From: Gammaproteobacteria bacterium
GTDB lineage: Bacteria; Pseudomonadota; Gammaproteobacteria; Pseudomonadales; Azotimanducaceae
Reading direction: 5' to 3'
DNA length: 64,000 nucleotides
Assembly (NCBI GenBank): GCA_009841635.1
Contig: VXLJ01000042.1
Location: 124,001-188,000, forward strand
The notes under the pieces were generated by a model, which ran no database searches, had not been told where the DNA came from, and saw only the letters and a list, made by a program, of their open reading frames with translations. Position 1 is the stretch's first letter; each line of letters opens with the position of its first letter. The translations under genes were made by a program, and so were the position numbers. This document shows positions 47,531-61,837 of the stretch, one piece after another.

Positions 47531-48913
47531 ATGAACACGAAGAAGCCCTGGGGCGGCCGATTTACCGGCACCACTGATGAGTTTGTCGAATCTTTCACCG
47601 CATCGGTGCAATTCGATGCAAGGCTTGGCGAAATCGACGCAAGATGTTCGCAAGCGCATGCGAAAACTCTTCTTCACGCAGAAATCCTGAATCAAGCTGA
47701 ATACGATGCCATTGTTACCGGGCTGAATCAGATCATCGTCGATATTCAAGCAGATCGCTTTCCATGGGATCCTGCGTTAGAAGATGTTCACATGAACATC
47801 GAAGCGCGCCTCACCCAAATGATTGGTGAGCCAGGCAGGAAATTACATACCGCACGTTCACGCAACGACCAGGTTGCGAGCGCGTTCAGAGTGTATTTGT
47901 TAGAGCATGGCGACGCATTGCAACGAGCACTAGTCACCTTGCAAAAAGCGCTGTTGGCCCAAGCCGAGGCGAATATAGATACCATCATGCCTGGATTTAC
48001 CCATCTTCAGAACGCACAGCCGATAACGTTCGGACACCATCTCATGGCCTGGTTTGAGATGGTTGAGCGTGATGTGTCGAGACTCAAAGACTGGCAGCAC
48101 CGCACTAATGTGTCACCAATGGGCAGCGCTGCTCTAGCTGGCACCAGTTTTCCGATAGACCGACAGATATTCAAGGACGCCATGAAGTTCCGCGAGATTT
48201 CTCGCAACTCACTCGACAGCGTTAGCGACAGAGATTTCGTGATTGAACTAGCATCGATTCTCAGTCTGATCATGGTGCATTTGTCGCGCTGGTGCGAGGA
48301 AGTGATACTGTGGATTTCACCTGCGTTCAAGTTCGTAGACCTGCCAGATGAGCTATGCACAGGTTCGAGCATCATGCCGCAAAAGAAGAATCCGGACGTC
48401 GCTGAACTGGTGCGTGGGAAAAGCGGTCGCGTTCTAGGGCATTTGCAGAGTTTGCTTCTACTCATGAAGGGGCAGCCACTCGCTTACAACCGTGACAATC
48501 AAGAAGACAAAGAAGCGGTCTTCGACGCGCTCGACACGACGGCGCAATGTGTGGCAGCGATGCAGCTTTTGATTGAAGGACTCGAGCCTAACCGTGAGAA
48601 GATGCTGGAACTAGCAGCACAAGGACATCCCACAGCGACAGATATGGCCGACTGGTTGGTTAGGCACGACGTGCCTTTCAGGACCGCTCACGAAAGCTGT
48701 GGCAACGCCGTCGCACTAGCAGATTCACGCGGTATTGAGCTTCACGATTTGAAGCTCGCTGAACTCCAAGAAATTAACCCAGCTTTTGACGAATCTATCT
48801 ATGAATGTCTGACGTTGGACGGATCGGTGCGCTCCCGTAGACATCCGGGCGGTACGGCCCCGGAAGCAGTAAAACAAGCGATAGCGCAGGCCAAGCTGCG
48901 GCTGTCCCAGTGA
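47531..48913 (+). CDS. argH: Argininosuccinate lyase
   Basis: The 460-residue enzyme is full length. It starts KKPWGGRFTG and shows VHMNIEARL, the HTARSRNDQ loop, MPGFTHLQNAQPITFGHH with the catalytic His region, and the superfamily signature GSSIMPQKKNPD near residue 277. It splits argininosuccinate into arginine and fumarate in the last step of arginine synthesis. This is the housekeeping copy; a second lyase domain of the same superfamily is fused to a peptidase at 59216-61837. Confidence 0.97.
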   Translation: MNTKKPWGGRFTGTTDEFVESFTASVQFDARLGEIDARCSQAHAKTLLHAEILNQAEYDAIVTGLNQIIVDIQADRFPWDPALEDVHMNIEARLTQMIGEPGRKLHTARSRNDQVASAFRVYLLEHGDALQRALVTLQKALLAQAEANIDTIMPGFTHLQNAQPITFGHHLMAWFEMVERDVSRLKDWQHRTNVSPMGSAALAGTSFPIDRQIFKDAMKFREISRNSLDSVSDRDFVIELASILSLIMVHLSRWCEEVILWISPAFKFVDLPDELCTGSSIMPQKKNPDVAELVRGKSGRVLGHLQSLLLLMKGQPLAYNRDNQEDKEAVFDALDTTAQCVAAMQLLIEGLEPNREKMLELAAQGHPTATDMADWLVRHDVPFRTAHESCGNAVALADSRGIELHDLKLAELQEINPAFDESIYECLTLDGSVRSRRHPGGTAPEAVKQAIAQAKLRLSQ

Positions 48914-56114: not shown

Positions 56115-59111
56115 TTAGTCGTACGAAAACATGATGTCAGAATAGATGTACCGACCATAGTCGCGATGTGCGTCTGCGAAAAATCCGAAGTAACGATCGG
56201 CTAAAGGCGCACGTTCGTCAAAGAGATTTTTGATGCCAATTCGAACTCGCGTCGGAGTGTCTTGCAGATCGAAGCGATAGTCAAGCCGAACATTCCAGGT
56301 CGACATGGCTCCGAGCCAGTATTTCGTGCCATCGCTAAGGGTGAGCGAATTTTGATACATGTCACCGATGGTGGTCTGGGATAGCGCGCCGCCCCATTGA
56401 TCCTTGCGCCAGGTGGCCAACAGTGTGCCTTTGAACTTCGGATTGCCGTTGCGTTCAACCAGGTCGTCGAAGCCTACCACCGGTATATCGCCGGGCAACA
56501 AGCCTGAGTTTTTTGCCTCGATCAATGTAGCCGCGTCGCCACCTGCTTCCTGTTCGAAGGTGTTCATGAACGTCGCAAGATATCGAACGCTTACATCGCC
56601 AAAGTCAGTGGCTGCTTCCCAGTACACACCCAGATCAAATCCTTTCAATGTCCTGGTGTCAAGGTTGGCATAGCGATCGTCAACGCGAACTGCTTGACCT
56701 GCCGGACATATGCCCGCTGCTTCATATACCGCTATCTCGTCAGCGTTGGTAATGGGATTGCGGACGACCGCGGGGTTGCCCACCAATGCGTCACAGTTCG
56801 AACCACCATGCTGTAGGCGGTAAATGAGATCAAGGACCGTGTGATTTGCTTCACCAAATAAGCCAATCGTGTCTTCTTTGACGATGGACCAATAGTCTGT
56901 GGTTACCGTCAATGAGTCCATGACATCAAAAACGAGACCGATCGAGATGTTGTCGGACCGTTCAGGCACTAACTCTTCGCTGCCGCGAGCCGTGCGTTGA
57001 GTCGAATTGACGCAGTCCACAATGTCTTGGCCCGGATCGCCACCCTGATTTGCCGCATAGATGCAAGCGTAGTCCGTACGGGTGTTCTGACGGGCTACGA
57101 TGCTCTCATTAATCGTTACGAGATTAGGCACTCGAAACGATTCTGACCATGATGCCCGCAAGGTAATTGGGTCTGCAATCTGCCACCCCATCGCGAGTTT
57201 GCCGACGACTGCGTGATCGACATCCGAAAAGTTCTCAAAACGCACAGCAGCTTGCGCTTCAACATTGCTCGCTACTGGAATCGCTAACTCGGCAAACAAC
57301 GAATCGACCCTGCGCGAACCATCGTTATCCGGGGTCGGACTGCTGTTAACCACGTCAGAAACGAATGGAAATGTATCACCCTCGAAATCCGTGAACACAA
57401 TCGTGCCATCCAAACGCGGGTCGCGATCGTCTTTGAACCACTCGCGGCGATGCTCGTACCCTATGAGAGCACCCAACGGACCAGCAGGTAGCGTCATCAC
57501 CTCTGGATTTGAGAATTTCAGATCCATCAGCAACAAACCAGCGTCGTTTTCACGATAAACGTCGATCAACGCGCGTTCAATGTTGTTGTCGACGCCTCCT
57601 GCAAATGGGTTATAGGCCGCAGGCGTTGGATCGCTAAGCGCTTCCGCCATGAGCAAATTTGAAACTCGATTGCCTGTCAAGTCGTAACGTTGGGCAATCG
57701 ACCACACTGCCGCAGTCTCCCAATCCCACTCGCCTCGAACCCCTCGAAGTCCTTGTACAAAGCGGAAAACTGAACCATCGTTACTCACCGAACGCGGCAG
57801 CTCGGCGAATCGGTAGTTATCAACGATTAGCTCTAAGCCTGAGCAAGGCACATCACCTATAACGTTCTCCGGAAGTCGATTTGGTGAATCACAAGGGCCG
57901 AACGGGTTGTAGTAGTGATCCGGCGAAATGCGTAGCTTGATAGAACTGAAAGAGGCCGATGGATGCCGATTCATATGCGATTCAGACTTGTAATACAAAA
58001 CTTCAGTAAAACTCTGAGTCGTGTCGGAAATGTCGTGATTGATAAAGGCGAAAACATTGTTGCGCATCAACTCTGCAGAGAGATCGCGAAACTCGTTTAA
58101 GTTGTATCGATAGGTGCCTTGTCCATCGGGTGCGCCGCATACAGTTGTGCTAATCGCATAAGCACAGCGTGAGTCGCCTGTTGGATAGGTTTCGAATTCG
58201 CCGCTTCTATCCGTCACAGGACCTCGAATGTCTAATCCGCTGACACTACGCACAACGTCGAACTGACCATACAGACTGTTCGCGCTCGTATTACGAAAAC
58301 GTAGATCCCCAGCCCAAGGTGAGTCGTCTGGCACTCGACTTCGGAAGTCGGCATGTGCCCAGCGATCGCTCTCTGAAGCGCTAATCCGATCCCGACTTTG
58401 GGTATCGAACATAAGGCCTACATGCGTTGCACCGTCGTTGAAATAACGTCCCCATTCAACATTGACCTCATAGGATTGCCGCGAAACATGCTCGTACAAC
58501 CCACCACGCATTTTGACGCGCAAGCCTTCGATATCGTTTTTTAAGACCGTATTGACAACGCCAGCTACAGCATCTGCGCCATAGATAGCTGACGCACCGT
58601 CCTTAAGCAGCTCGACGCGCTCGATACCAAAAACGGGTAGCGTGTTTGAGTTAACGGTATTGACTGGGACAAAACTACCGCCTATTTCTTCTGTTTGAAA
58701 GCTAGCAGCATTCACCATGCGGCGACCATTGAGCAACACTAAGGTGTTACCGGTGCCGAGATTGCGTAGATTGAATGCGCCGATATCACCACGAGCAGAG
58801 TTAACGCCACCACTGATGTTTTCTTCCTCGTTAAAGAAGTTTTGCCCTTGTTCTGGCAGCATCTCCATCAATGCATCACCAGAATCGACGCCCATAGCGT
58901 CCACATCGTCGCCATCAATGACCGTTACTGGCAAAAGCCCTGATACGTCGGCACCGCGTATTTGCGTGCCAGTGACCACGACTTCCTCAATAACTTCTTC
59001 TTCAGTTACTTCTTCTTCCTGAGCAAATACGGATAAACTCAAAAATGACGCCATAAGCGCACCAGAGAGCACTGACGACAGAATGCTCGTTAGAGTTGAT
59101 GGCTTGTTCAT
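56115..59111 (-). CDS. TonB-dependent outer-membrane receptor
   Basis: The 998-residue protein has a signal peptide (cleavage after LSVFA), an acidic linker and a TonB-box-like EEVVVTGTQIRG. The plug domain includes FNLRNLGTGNTLVLLNGRR and LLKDGASAIYGADAVAGVVN, and a barrel ends in SDIMFSYD. The form matches the large family of marine and soil gammaproteobacterial receptors for peptides, glycans and other non-siderophore ligands. The gene begins 104 bases behind the stop of the peptidase-lyase fusion on the same strand, so the two are probably one operon and act on the same compound. Confidence 0.9.
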   Translation of the reverse strand: MNKPSTLTSILSSVLSGALMASFLSLSVFAQEEEVTEEEVIEEVVVTGTQIRGADVSGLLPVTVIDGDDVDAMGVDSGDALMEMLPEQGQNFFNEEENISGGVNSARGDIGAFNLRNLGTGNTLVLLNGRRMVNAASFQTEEIGGSFVPVNTVNSNTLPVFGIERVELLKDGASAIYGADAVAGVVNTVLKNDIEGLRVKMRGGLYEHVSRQSYEVNVEWGRYFNDGATHVGLMFDTQSRDRISASESDRWAHADFRSRVPDDSPWAGDLRFRNTSANSLYGQFDVVRSVSGLDIRGPVTDRSGEFETYPTGDSRCAYAISTTVCGAPDGQGTYRYNLNEFRDLSAELMRNNVFAFINHDISDTTQSFTEVLYYKSESHMNRHPSASFSSIKLRISPDHYYNPFGPCDSPNRLPENVIGDVPCSGLELIVDNYRFAELPRSVSNDGSVFRFVQGLRGVRGEWDWETAAVWSIAQRYDLTGNRVSNLLMAEALSDPTPAAYNPFAGGVDNNIERALIDVYRENDAGLLLMDLKFSNPEVMTLPAGPLGALIGYEHRREWFKDDRDPRLDGTIVFTDFEGDTFPFVSDVVNSSPTPDNDGSRRVDSLFAELAIPVASNVEAQAAVRFENFSDVDHAVVGKLAMGWQIADPITLRASWSESFRVPNLVTINESIVARQNTRTDYACIYAANQGGDPGQDIVDCVNSTQRTARGSEELVPERSDNISIGLVFDVMDSLTVTTDYWSIVKEDTIGLFGEANHTVLDLIYRLQHGGSNCDALVGNPAVVRNPITNADEIAVYEAAGICPAGQAVRVDDRYANLDTRTLKGFDLGVYWEAATDFGDVSVRYLATFMNTFEQEAGGDAATLIEAKNSGLLPGDIPVVGFDDLVERNGNPKFKGTLLATWRKDQWGGALSQTTIGDMYQNSLTLSDGTKYWLGAMSTWNVRLDYRFDLQDTPTRVRIGIKNLFDERAPLADRYFGFFADAHRDYGRYIYSDIMFSYD

Positions 59112-59215: not shown

Positions 59216-61837
59216 TCAGTCTGACGCGTGCTTTGCGAGTTCGTTCAAACGCACCTCTAAGCGGTATGCCGCGTCATACATACGAGCTCGTTGGGATTGC
59301 AGCCACATTAAGTCACTTGCCAATATTTCACGCTGCTTCACGATCGCATCGCCTACAGCGTCGAAGCCGGGTTCACCGGGATCTGAACGAATTGCGACAA
59401 AATGGCGCGGGTTAATGGCATGGCGAAGCGTTAGCACTGGTATTGCCAATGCATCATCTAGCGTCTCTTCATATATCGAGTGGAACTCCGCGTCTGTGAG
59501 CTCGTTCAACTGTTTCCCGTCATCACGCGCTTGTTCAACAAGCCGTTTTGCATAAGCGTGCGCAGACCTGAAAGGTATACCGACCTCTCGATGCAGCAAG
59601 TCAGCAATCTCCGTTGAGGTCGAGAAACCCCGCGCCAATTCCGCCAATGCTCGTTCTTGATCGACGCGAACACTTCGCACAAGCACACCAAATCGTTCAT
59701 ACACGGATGTTGCGTCTGCCAACATGTCCACAAGTGGATCGACGGTACGATAGTCATGCATCCCGATGTCCACGTTGTGGTTCAAAAGCTGCTGTTCGAA
59801 CGCCATAGCCGTTACATGCGCGGCTAATGTGCGTATGCGGTCAAGCTCACGTGGATTACGCTTTTGCGGCATGATGCTGCTACCGCTGGTCAGGTCTTCA
59901 GCTAAATAGATCCAAGGTCGCGGATTGCGTTGCTGAGCGTGGACGTTCGAAATGAATTTGGTTACGGATGCAATACTTTGGGCGATGACACTCGCGATTT
60001 CAAGTTTGTAGTCTGCAGTAGACAAAAAGTTTGCGTCATAGGAATTCTCGATGGGTCGATCAAAAGCCAGCAAACTCGCCATATGCTCACGATCCAGCGA
60101 AAACCCAGACCCAGAGCCTGCAGCAACTCCGAGCTGACTTTGATTGAGTCGATTGAATGCTGCTTGAATTCTCTCGCTATCGCGGCTCAACGCTGCGTCG
60201 AAAGCCGACAACACATGTGCGTAATTCGTGGGTTGCGATGGCACACCGTGCGTGTAAGCTGGAATGACGACCTCGATGTTCAACTCGGCAGATTCCAACA
60301 ACGCCTTTCGAGTAGCCAGTAACGCGTCATAAAAACCAAGCACGTTTGCTCGCGCGTACATGCGTCGAGCTACACCGTGCAAATCTTGGCGCGATCGACC
60401 GATGTGCACGTTAGATGCTTCAGGACCTAGCTTGTCGATTAAGTGCGCTTCTAACGTGAGATAGTTCTGCCCACCTGGCCATCCTTCTTGTTCTGCTTGT
60501 CGCTTAAACGTCAACTGTTCTCGTGCTATGTGTGCGCCCAACTTCCGCTCAAGTGCCACATCTTTCACCAAGCTAAGCAATGAAGCACCATTGGCGTCCA
60601 CCATAAAACAGAACAATTCAGCGCAAGGTTGCACGTATGGCACTTCGTCGACAAGCTCAAGCGAGCCATAAATCTCTGCTGTAGCGAGGGCGAACTCTTC
60701 AGCGGTTTTTACGACCTCGGCAAGGTCCGATTCGTCGCCAACTTCATAAGTGATTGAAGGAATCCCATAGGTTTTAAAGAAAAAACCTTTGGCGGTGCCT
60801 TGTTCAGTCAAAGGCCTTGGTGCATATTCAGGTAATTTCGCCACACCACGCTGTTCAACGAAGTCAAGCCACTGCACCGCAAAATTTGGCGGATTCGTGA
60901 CGTCGTCCGGCATTTGTGTATACAGAACATCGCGATTGGTGGAATGAAAGTCCAAATGTAAAACAACCTGCTTGCCGTTGCTGACCACTTCGCTTAGGTA
61001 ACGCTGCACAGATTGAATTTCAGGTTGGCTCGCATCGAACCAATCACGGTTCAAATCCTTACCCTGCAGGTTATGTCGCCAATGACCGGCTTGGACGCCA
61101 TCCGGGTTCAATAGTGGAACGAACAATATCGCGTGATGCCTAAAAAAGCGGTCAACGGCTTCGCTGCTTGACTCATCACGTGAGACCTTCATCCTAAGCA
61201 GCGCTTCAACGAATGCCATGAATGCGACCGAACCTGAGACTTCCGGAGGGTGCTGACGACCCAGCAAAACAACGAACCGATCAGCCTCCGGATTTATGAT
61301 CAATGCTTCAATTGGGCGTTTAGCGACAGAAAAACCTATTGTCTTTTGTTGTATAAAAGGAAAGTTTGAACGCAAATTGGCGATCCAATCTACATACATA
61401 CTTTCGTCTAATATTTTCTGTGCCGATATATATCCTTTCGATAATGCCGAAGGTATCGTCATAGTAAGTGTGTAGTCGTCTATTTCTTTTATGTGATTTG
61501 CAGAAAGTTCTTTCCATACTTTTTTATCTTTGCTGAATTTAGGTACATATCGATGCGGCGCTTCATCATATTTCAATATAACTTCGACGTCGGACGAATC
61601 AGCATTTAAGCGTTCAAACCTAAACCCATACCAGGGACTCGGATTGATCGGCGTATCTTCCGGCAAAACATCAAGTTCAAATCGATATTCATCTAATACT
61701 CGACAAGCGTGGTAATTAGCCGTCGGAAAGTCCTTGGCTATCACCATTGTGTTCGAATGGCACGTTTCGTTGGCAGCGTGTATCGAAGCGGTCGCTACCG
61801 CAGCTAATATGACAACTGACCAAATGCCGGCACGCAT
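59216..61837 (-). CDS. Secreted fusion of M14 metallocarboxypeptidase and argininosuccinate-lyase-type C-N lyase
   Basis: The 873-residue protein has a Sec signal (residues 1-21). Residues about 45-165 look like the beta-rich N-domain of cytosolic-carboxypeptidase-type M14 enzymes (PWYGFRFERLNA). Residues 185-395 are an M14 catalytic domain: zinc ligands H196 and E199 in RQHPPE, NPDGVQAGHWR, DLNRDW, third ligand H298 in DFHSTN, and catalytic Glu365 in TYEVGDES. Residues about 405-873 are a lyase domain of argininosuccinate-lyase size. It keeps HIGRSRQD (478-485), YTHGVPSQPTNYAH with His530 and His541, and the signature GSSIMPQKRNP (652-662). Both active sites look intact. No stop or frameshift separates the parts. 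The lyase superfamily is normally cytoplasmic, so an exported copy joined to a peptidase is odd. Confidence 0.88.
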   Translation of the reverse strand: MRAGIWSVVILAAVATASIHAANETCHSNTMVIAKDFPTANYHACRVLDEYRFELDVLPEDTPINPSPWYGFRFERLNADSSDVEVILKYDEAPHRYVPKFSKDKKVWKELSANHIKEIDDYTLTMTIPSALSKGYISAQKILDESMYVDWIANLRSNFPFIQQKTIGFSVAKRPIEALIINPEADRFVVLLGRQHPPEVSGSVAFMAFVEALLRMKVSRDESSSEAVDRFFRHHAILFVPLLNPDGVQAGHWRHNLQGKDLNRDWFDASQPEIQSVQRYLSEVVSNGKQVVLHLDFHSTNRDVLYTQMPDDVTNPPNFAVQWLDFVEQRGVAKLPEYAPRPLTEQGTAKGFFFKTYGIPSITYEVGDESDLAEVVKTAEEFALATAEIYGSLELVDEVPYVQPCAELFCFMVDANGASLLSLVKDVALERKLGAHIAREQLTFKRQAEQEGWPGGQNYLTLEAHLIDKLGPEASNVHIGRSRQDLHGVARRMYARANVLGFYDALLATRKALLESAELNIEVVIPAYTHGVPSQPTNYAHVLSAFDAALSRDSERIQAAFNRLNQSQLGVAAGSGSGFSLDREHMASLLAFDRPIENSYDANFLSTADYKLEIASVIAQSIASVTKFISNVHAQQRNPRPWIYLAEDLTSGSSIMPQKRNPRELDRIRTLAAHVTAMAFEQQLLNHNVDIGMHDYRTVDPLVDMLADATSVYERFGVLVRSVRVDQERALAELARGFSTSTEIADLLHREVGIPFRSAHAYAKRLVEQARDDGKQLNELTDAEFHSIYEETLDDALAIPVLTLRHAINPRHFVAIRSDPGEPGFDAVGDAIVKQREILASDLMWLQSQRARMYDAAYRLEVRLNELAKHASD

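Follow-up and report, generated by a model that had tools for sequence, protein, structure and literature searches.

An apparently exported fusion of a CCP-like M14 carboxypeptidase and an argininosuccinate-lyase-type domain, encoded beside a TonB-dependent receptor

The window, the whole stretch of 64,000 nucleotides analyzed here, contains a gene (59216..61837, minus strand; 873 aa) for a single protein: its N-terminus is signal-like, a CCP-like M14 peptidase follows, and the remainder is a domain of the argininosuccinate-lyase type. We see an even chance that this protein works in the periplasm as a bifunctional catabolic enzyme supplied by the TonB-dependent receptor encoded next to it, in which an M14 step would be followed by an elimination carried out by the lyase half.

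The frame runs over 873 codons from an ATG start to the stop codon, with zero internal stops, on the minus strand; the plus-strand frame at 59216-61837 has many stops. A first-pass annotation of this DNA, which gave no strand, had described a single uninterrupted frame of this length, and this description is borne out, as no stop lies within the fusion in any of the 20 genomes found to carry it. Residues 1-21 form the signal-peptide-like N-terminus (61775..61837, minus strand; boundary set by eye from hydropathy). The M14 half follows at residues 30-395 (60653..61750, minus strand), and the lyase half occupies residues 408-870 (59228..60616, minus strand); an extension at its C-terminus can be aligned with EDDS lyase. 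Three Pfam families matched over their cut-offs, namely Peptidase_M14 (E 3.6e-16, residues 149-337), Lyase_1 (E 1.2e-28, residues 472-675) and ASL_C2 (E 2.9e-14, residues 738-808); AstE_AspA_cat, covering part of the M14 half, was also over its cut-off.

A search of 97 related genomes found the fusion in all 18 genomes of the same genus (the window genome included) and in G053, and a profile search of 206 family genomes added G981, which belongs with G053 to one other genus. The combination of M14 and Lyase_1 thus recurs across genomes, and an assembly artefact or chance frame was ruled out by this recurrence in 20 genomes. Nineteen of the 20 fusions make up alignment A1, in which the 18 relatives share 36-59% identity with the window protein; the G012 fusion lacks its N-terminus at a contig end. 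Among 19 species pairs, the ten with unsaturated dS in both halves gave dN/dS values of 0.08-0.13 in each half, the other nine being saturated in one or both halves and one of these lying beyond calculation. These substitution ratios show purifying selection acting on both halves. At one locus (L015) the M14 half is nearest to that of L018 and the lyase half to that of L019, as if recombined between species. A first scan of genome contigs with the single protein as query found no relative; an alignment-based scan found 586 stretches encoding relatives, of which the best 80 entered the analysis. On plasmids, 236 records match in part and none covers 80% of the fusion protein.

The M14 residues were examined in 52 rows, comprising the 20 fusions, 30 M14 proteins without a lyase and two split-gene pieces. 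The zinc ligands H196, E199 and H298, together with R254, N263, R264, T363, E365 and K350, are conserved in every row with a letter at the position (51 of 52 in each case), in agreement with the annotated presence of all zinc and catalytic residues, and NPDG occurs in all 19 rows of A1. The closest solved peptidases of the M14 profile are PaCCP (4a37) and BcCCP (4b6z); profile positions 28-301 align with residues 10-273 of 4a37, so that the alignment takes in the region of the CCP N-domain, which in CCPs is a beta-sandwich. The conserved residues match those named for the Burkholderia cenocepacia enzyme (BcCCP) in the available text of PMC3940198, which also states a His-Pro-Gly-Glu motif for CCPs. 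In its place, 50 of the 51 rows with letters have HPPE and one has HPSE; the label 'CCP-like' is fair but does not extend to HPGE. K350 lies near the position of BcCCP Lys330 (hand alignment, one shifted residue), an S1' lysine that its authors link to acidic substrates (PMC3940198, available text), which suggests an acidic leaving residue. The weak cleavage of a furylacryloyl-glutamate substrate by the same enzyme, described in that text, counts against such a preference, and the substrates of bacterial CCPs are reported there as unknown. We infer from its sequence that the M14 half probably prefers an acidic C-terminal residue, Glu or Asp.

In lyase class I, the catalytic Ser of the SSxMPxKxN loop and a conserved His have established roles. 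The lyase half carries this loop and this His and, by these motifs, belongs to the lyase class I or fumarase-ASL superfamily. Across the 19 rows of A1 there is no variation at T529, H530, S653, K659 and N661, nor at M656, P657 and Q658 of the loop; the catalytic residues are intact, as annotated. The GSSIMPQKRNP signature loop (residues 652-662; 59852..59884, minus strand) holds S653, which by a count along the profile alignment corresponds to Ser280 of EDDS lyase, the catalytic serine of that enzyme. The domain is not an ArgH, and its motifs do not mark it as a strict EDDS lyase. All 20 fusions have RSRQD, within a GRSRQD motif (residues 480-485; 60383..60400, minus strand), where the window ArgH and EDDS lyase have RSRND, and all 20 have a GMHDYR loop (residues 692-697; 59747..59764, minus strand) in place of the QEDK loop, which in ArgH has a role in arginine binding. 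Given the change from Asn to Gln, the acid pocket may differ and may not bind fumarate.

The best NCBIfam model of the fusion is argH (TIGR00838), at 221.7 bits against a cut-off of 279.5, and none of the 18 genus fusions exceeds that cut-off. A true argH does so in ten of the 18 genomes, the same ten in which argG is over its cut-off; that of the window lies at 47531-48910 on the plus strand. The fusion is kept in the other eight, where neither gene is over its cut-off, and this retention counts for a catabolic function. These eight genomes are G002, G005, G007, G008, G010, G011, G012 and G013, of which G012 is 77% complete and the other seven 92-96%. That neither gene exceeds its cut-off in them suggests that part of the genus depends on arginine. 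A role as ArgH in arginine biosynthesis was ruled out by the sub-cut-off scores, RSRQD, the lack of a QEDK loop and the eight genomes without argG and argH over cut-off. That argH is the best model would still fit a displaced or moonlighting argininosuccinate lyase supplying arginine, but the same evidence, together with the signal-like N-terminus and the true argH present in ten genomes, leaves this idea only the slightest chance.

In profile comparison the best solved relative of the lyase half is the EDDS lyase of Chelativorans (PDB 6rx8, 6g3d; E 1.8e-70), with ArgH 1tj7 behind it (E 5e-56), and the alignment with EDDS lyase reaches chain residue 495, that is, the two have a C-terminal extension in common. 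These comparisons bear on another scheme, in which the M14 half frees aspartate and the lyase half deaminates it in the manner of aspartase, yielding fumarate and ammonia. The S1' lysine, suggesting an acidic leaving residue, would suit such a scheme, and aspartase-type models do match the lyase half, although weakly (25.9 bits). The argH model is far better, however, and the best solved relatives, EDDS lyase and the argininosuccinate lyases, act on substituted aspartates, so that we consider direct deamination very unlikely. A tree of 106 lyase domains was built by a quick method, with rows from the best 80 of 586 stretches (L041, which has the same motifs as the G002 copy, was left out). In this tree the 20 fusions and a stand-alone lyase of G022 form one set (support 99), which nests in a set of 44 rows (support 100) apart from ArgH, EDDS lyase and PRK06705-like rows. 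RSRQD is found in 40 of the 44 rows, among the matches listed. The branch of EDDS lyase, which joins ArgH at 83 (not starred), is long, so that this part of the tree gives firm evidence neither of kinship nor of separation. Strict membership among the EDDS lyases or among the CCPs is disfavoured by motifs and tree.

Hydropathy (best 10-residue score) was the sole basis of the signal calls; for DNA outside the window, ORFs came from a simple script. The N-terminus of the window fusion scores 2.74 versus 0.65 for the window ArgH. All 19 fusions that have an N-terminus are signal-like by this measure, in keeping with the signal peptide annotated earlier, with scores of 2.27-3.37 for which the starts of the relatives were picked near a signal-like stretch, several at TTG or GTG, a choice that favours finding a signal. 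At least ten stand-alone lyases of the 44-row set, belonging to Proteobacteria and Acidobacteriota, are likewise signal-like at 2.37-3.13 (L042, L044, L050, L051, L052, L054, L057, L058, L061 and L062), and the G022 lyase scores 2.40. Eight other lyases, taken as not exported, score 0.77-2.18, and seven of them peak at residue 19 or later. Several members of the lyase clade therefore look exported by hydropathy, among the matches listed. The first-pass annotation had held known members of the superfamily to be cytoplasmic, and this needs correction at least for its relatives here, since signal-like N-termini also occur outside the fusion. For the 30 M14 proteins without a lyase, the stretch ahead of the C26 column scores 1.66-3.52; 21 exceed 2.18, and nine lie at 1.66-2.17 and have a thin margin. 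Conservation of C26, C45, C405 and C410 reaches 90% or more in A1, as would suit a protein in an oxidising compartment. The fusion protein is apparently exported, as far as the hydropathy of its N-terminus indicates.

The next gene downstream, after a gap of 104 bases, encodes a TonB-dependent receptor of 998 aa with Pfam plug and barrel domains (56115..59111, minus strand). In all 17 genus loci long enough to show it, this receptor gene follows the fusion in the same orientation; two small predicted ORFs intervene in L021, and in L022 the two genes are about 640 bases apart. The receptor gene adjoins the fusion in G053 as well and is divergent in G981, while the neighbours past the receptor vary within the genus. 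Compared with the window receptor, those encoded near M14 or lyase genes in other genera score 420-1384 bits, the one in the G022 lyase locus reaching 1231 bits. A second receptor in L198 scores 107 bits, and other matches in the window genome reach 114 bits at most (short flanks, some paralogues cut). An ORF family of about 1170 aa (L030:412-3927), with a sub-cut-off match to Golvesin_C, occurs near the fusion in seven genus loci.

M14 proteins outside the fusions were sought by profile (E 1e-80 or 1e-60) in overlapping sets of genomes from the class (369), the phylum (398) and the family (206). An M14 without a lyase was found in 31 genomes, and 30 loci were counted: G049, in which the M14 is split over two contigs, was left out, and G980, in which it is fused to another domain, was included. 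In the fetched neighbourhoods, which span 6.5 to 20 kb and are in some cases cut by contig ends, a receptor like that of the window (E 1e-10 or better) is present in 24 of the 30 stretches. It was not found in the fetched stretches of L129, L164, L165, L167, L201 and L202; L167 has a Pfam TonB-dependent receptor about 2 kb away that is not similar to that of the window at E 1e-10. Conversely, G022 combines its stand-alone signal-like lyase with a window-like receptor, and no M14 was detected there. An Amidohydro_3 (D-aminoacylase-type) protein adjoins the M14 in seven of the 30 loci, the closest solved structure of the L127 protein being D-aminoacylase 1rjp (E 4e-70). In G980, which shares its genus with the lyase fusions of G053 and G981, the M14 is fused to an Amidohydro_3 domain instead of a lyase (L167:5948-8587, minus strand). 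FAD oxidoreductases of the DAO family adjoin the M14 in L127, L128 and L176 and also adjoin the G022 lyase, and the fetched DNA of L166 and L178 contains them too; the L127 protein scores 344.9 bits against the D-amino acid dehydrogenase model, under its cut-off of 383. A sodium:dicarboxylate-type symporter is found near the M14 in L178 and a sulfate/citrate-type carrier in L177. A DUF4886-type gene lies beside or near M14 and receptor in L130, L177, L039 and L127. Among the annotated neighbours of the stand-alone signal-like lyases, only a saccharopine-dehydrogenase-like gene recurs, and such a gene adjoins a same-clade lyase at L058:6264-7706 (Bradyrhizobium) and L181:8854-10293 (G556).

Judging from these partner swaps, it is the second enzyme that varies, whereas the M14 is constant and the receptor is retained in most loci. 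The M14 proteins without a lyase and the G022 lyase without an M14 count against an obligate joint action of the two steps. The M14 proteins that stand without a lyase also raise the question of whether the lyase half could be a non-catalytic scaffold for the peptidase, serving in oligomerisation or ligand binding. The ASL fold has been recruited for a structural role in the delta crystallins, and the replacement of Asn by Gln in RSRND could be taken in the same sense. We nevertheless regard a scaffold as unlikely, because T529, H530, S653, K659 and N661 do not vary in A1, because signal-like N-termini also occur on stand-alone relatives, and because dN/dS in the lyase half is as low as 0.08-0.13 in the unsaturated pairs.

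For the bifunctional catabolic enzyme, the following sequence of events is proposed. The TonB-dependent receptor would bring an acidic peptide-like compound across the outer membrane, and the CCP-like M14 half would cut off the residue at the C-terminus of this compound (probably Glu or Asp). From the N- (or S-) substituted aspartate-type remainder, a dicarboxyethyl-amine, the lyase half would then eliminate fumarate or a close analogue, freeing the amine, and the small acids and the amino acid would be taken up across the inner membrane. We infer both activities, the acidic preference, the order of the steps, fumarate as the product, the cargo of the receptor and the nature of the substrate. 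A periplasmic two-step action had already been suggested in the first-pass annotation; the receptor linkage and the separate, exchangeable partners strengthen it, and the earlier interpretation as a whole is supported in part. The swaps are most simply explained if the second enzyme is matched to whatever caps the N-terminus of the compound, either hydrolysing an acyl group from a D-amino acid or eliminating a dicarboxylate from an amine.

The bond cleaved could instead be C-S, with the M14 half trimming a peptide and the lyase half removing fumarate from S-(2-succino)cysteine peptides. There is precedent in 2SL, a lyase class I enzyme that, according to the available text of PMC9706529, releases fumarate from N-acetyl-S-(2-succino)cysteine and accepts several small thiols, and an M14 half would suit peptide adducts. 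The same text describes 2SL as inactive with glutathione, and a yxe-like gene set was not found among the neighbours run through Pfam; we judge cleavage confined to C-S quite improbable.

More broadly, we tentatively propose, as a possibility rather than an expectation, a receptor-fed uptake route in which a CCP-like peptidase works with an exchangeable periplasmic enzyme, either a fumarate-releasing C-N or C-S lyase or a D-aminoacylase, so that compounds would be cleaved before transport across the inner membrane. What is scavenged would be substituted acidic or D-amino-acid compounds; succinated peptides and aminopolycarboxylate metal ligands are possible examples. If true, this would give the ASL superfamily a periplasmic role. 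The clade with signal-like N-termini, in which one branch is joined to a peptidase and linked with a single kind of receptor, suggests that bacteria may harvest substituted aspartates or acidic D-peptides from an environmental pool. The exchange of lyase for D-aminoacylase within the genus of two of the lyase fusions constrains the chemistry and opens a direct way to the substrate. EDDS lyase itself serves in the synthesis of chiral N-substituted aspartates.

Several known systems can be set beside the fusion. A search of titles and abstract openings yielded, among the matches listed, no description of an M14-lyase fusion or of a periplasmic ASL-type lyase. With 2SL, compared by its description in the available text of PMC9706529, the fusion shares membership in lyase class I and the release of fumarate in a catabolic pathway, the latter as proposed here; 2SL belongs to a yxe locus and is not described in that text as fused. 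Like the bacterial CCPs (4a37, 4b6z), it has the zinc ligands, NPDG, the Asn-Arg pair and the Glu, but it differs from them in HPPE for HPGE, the signal-like N-terminus, the conserved Cys residues and the lyase fused on. Its resemblance to ArgH lies in the fold family by profile and in the RSR, YTH and MPQK motifs; unlike ArgH, it falls below the argH cut-off, lacks QEDK, has a signal-like N-terminus and is present without argG. EDDS lyase, a cytoplasmic enzyme, is its best profile match and shares the C-terminal extension and the SSIMPQK loop, but has RSRND where the fusion has RSRQD and YTQ where it has YTH, and is without the GMHDYR loop. The argininosuccinate lyase fusions of NF002563 (PRK02186), an 890-position model, match residues 413-780 of the fusion protein with their C-terminal part, and their N-terminal partner is an ATP-grasp domain rather than an M14. 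To our knowledge, all characterised lyases of the ASL superfamily are cytoplasmic.
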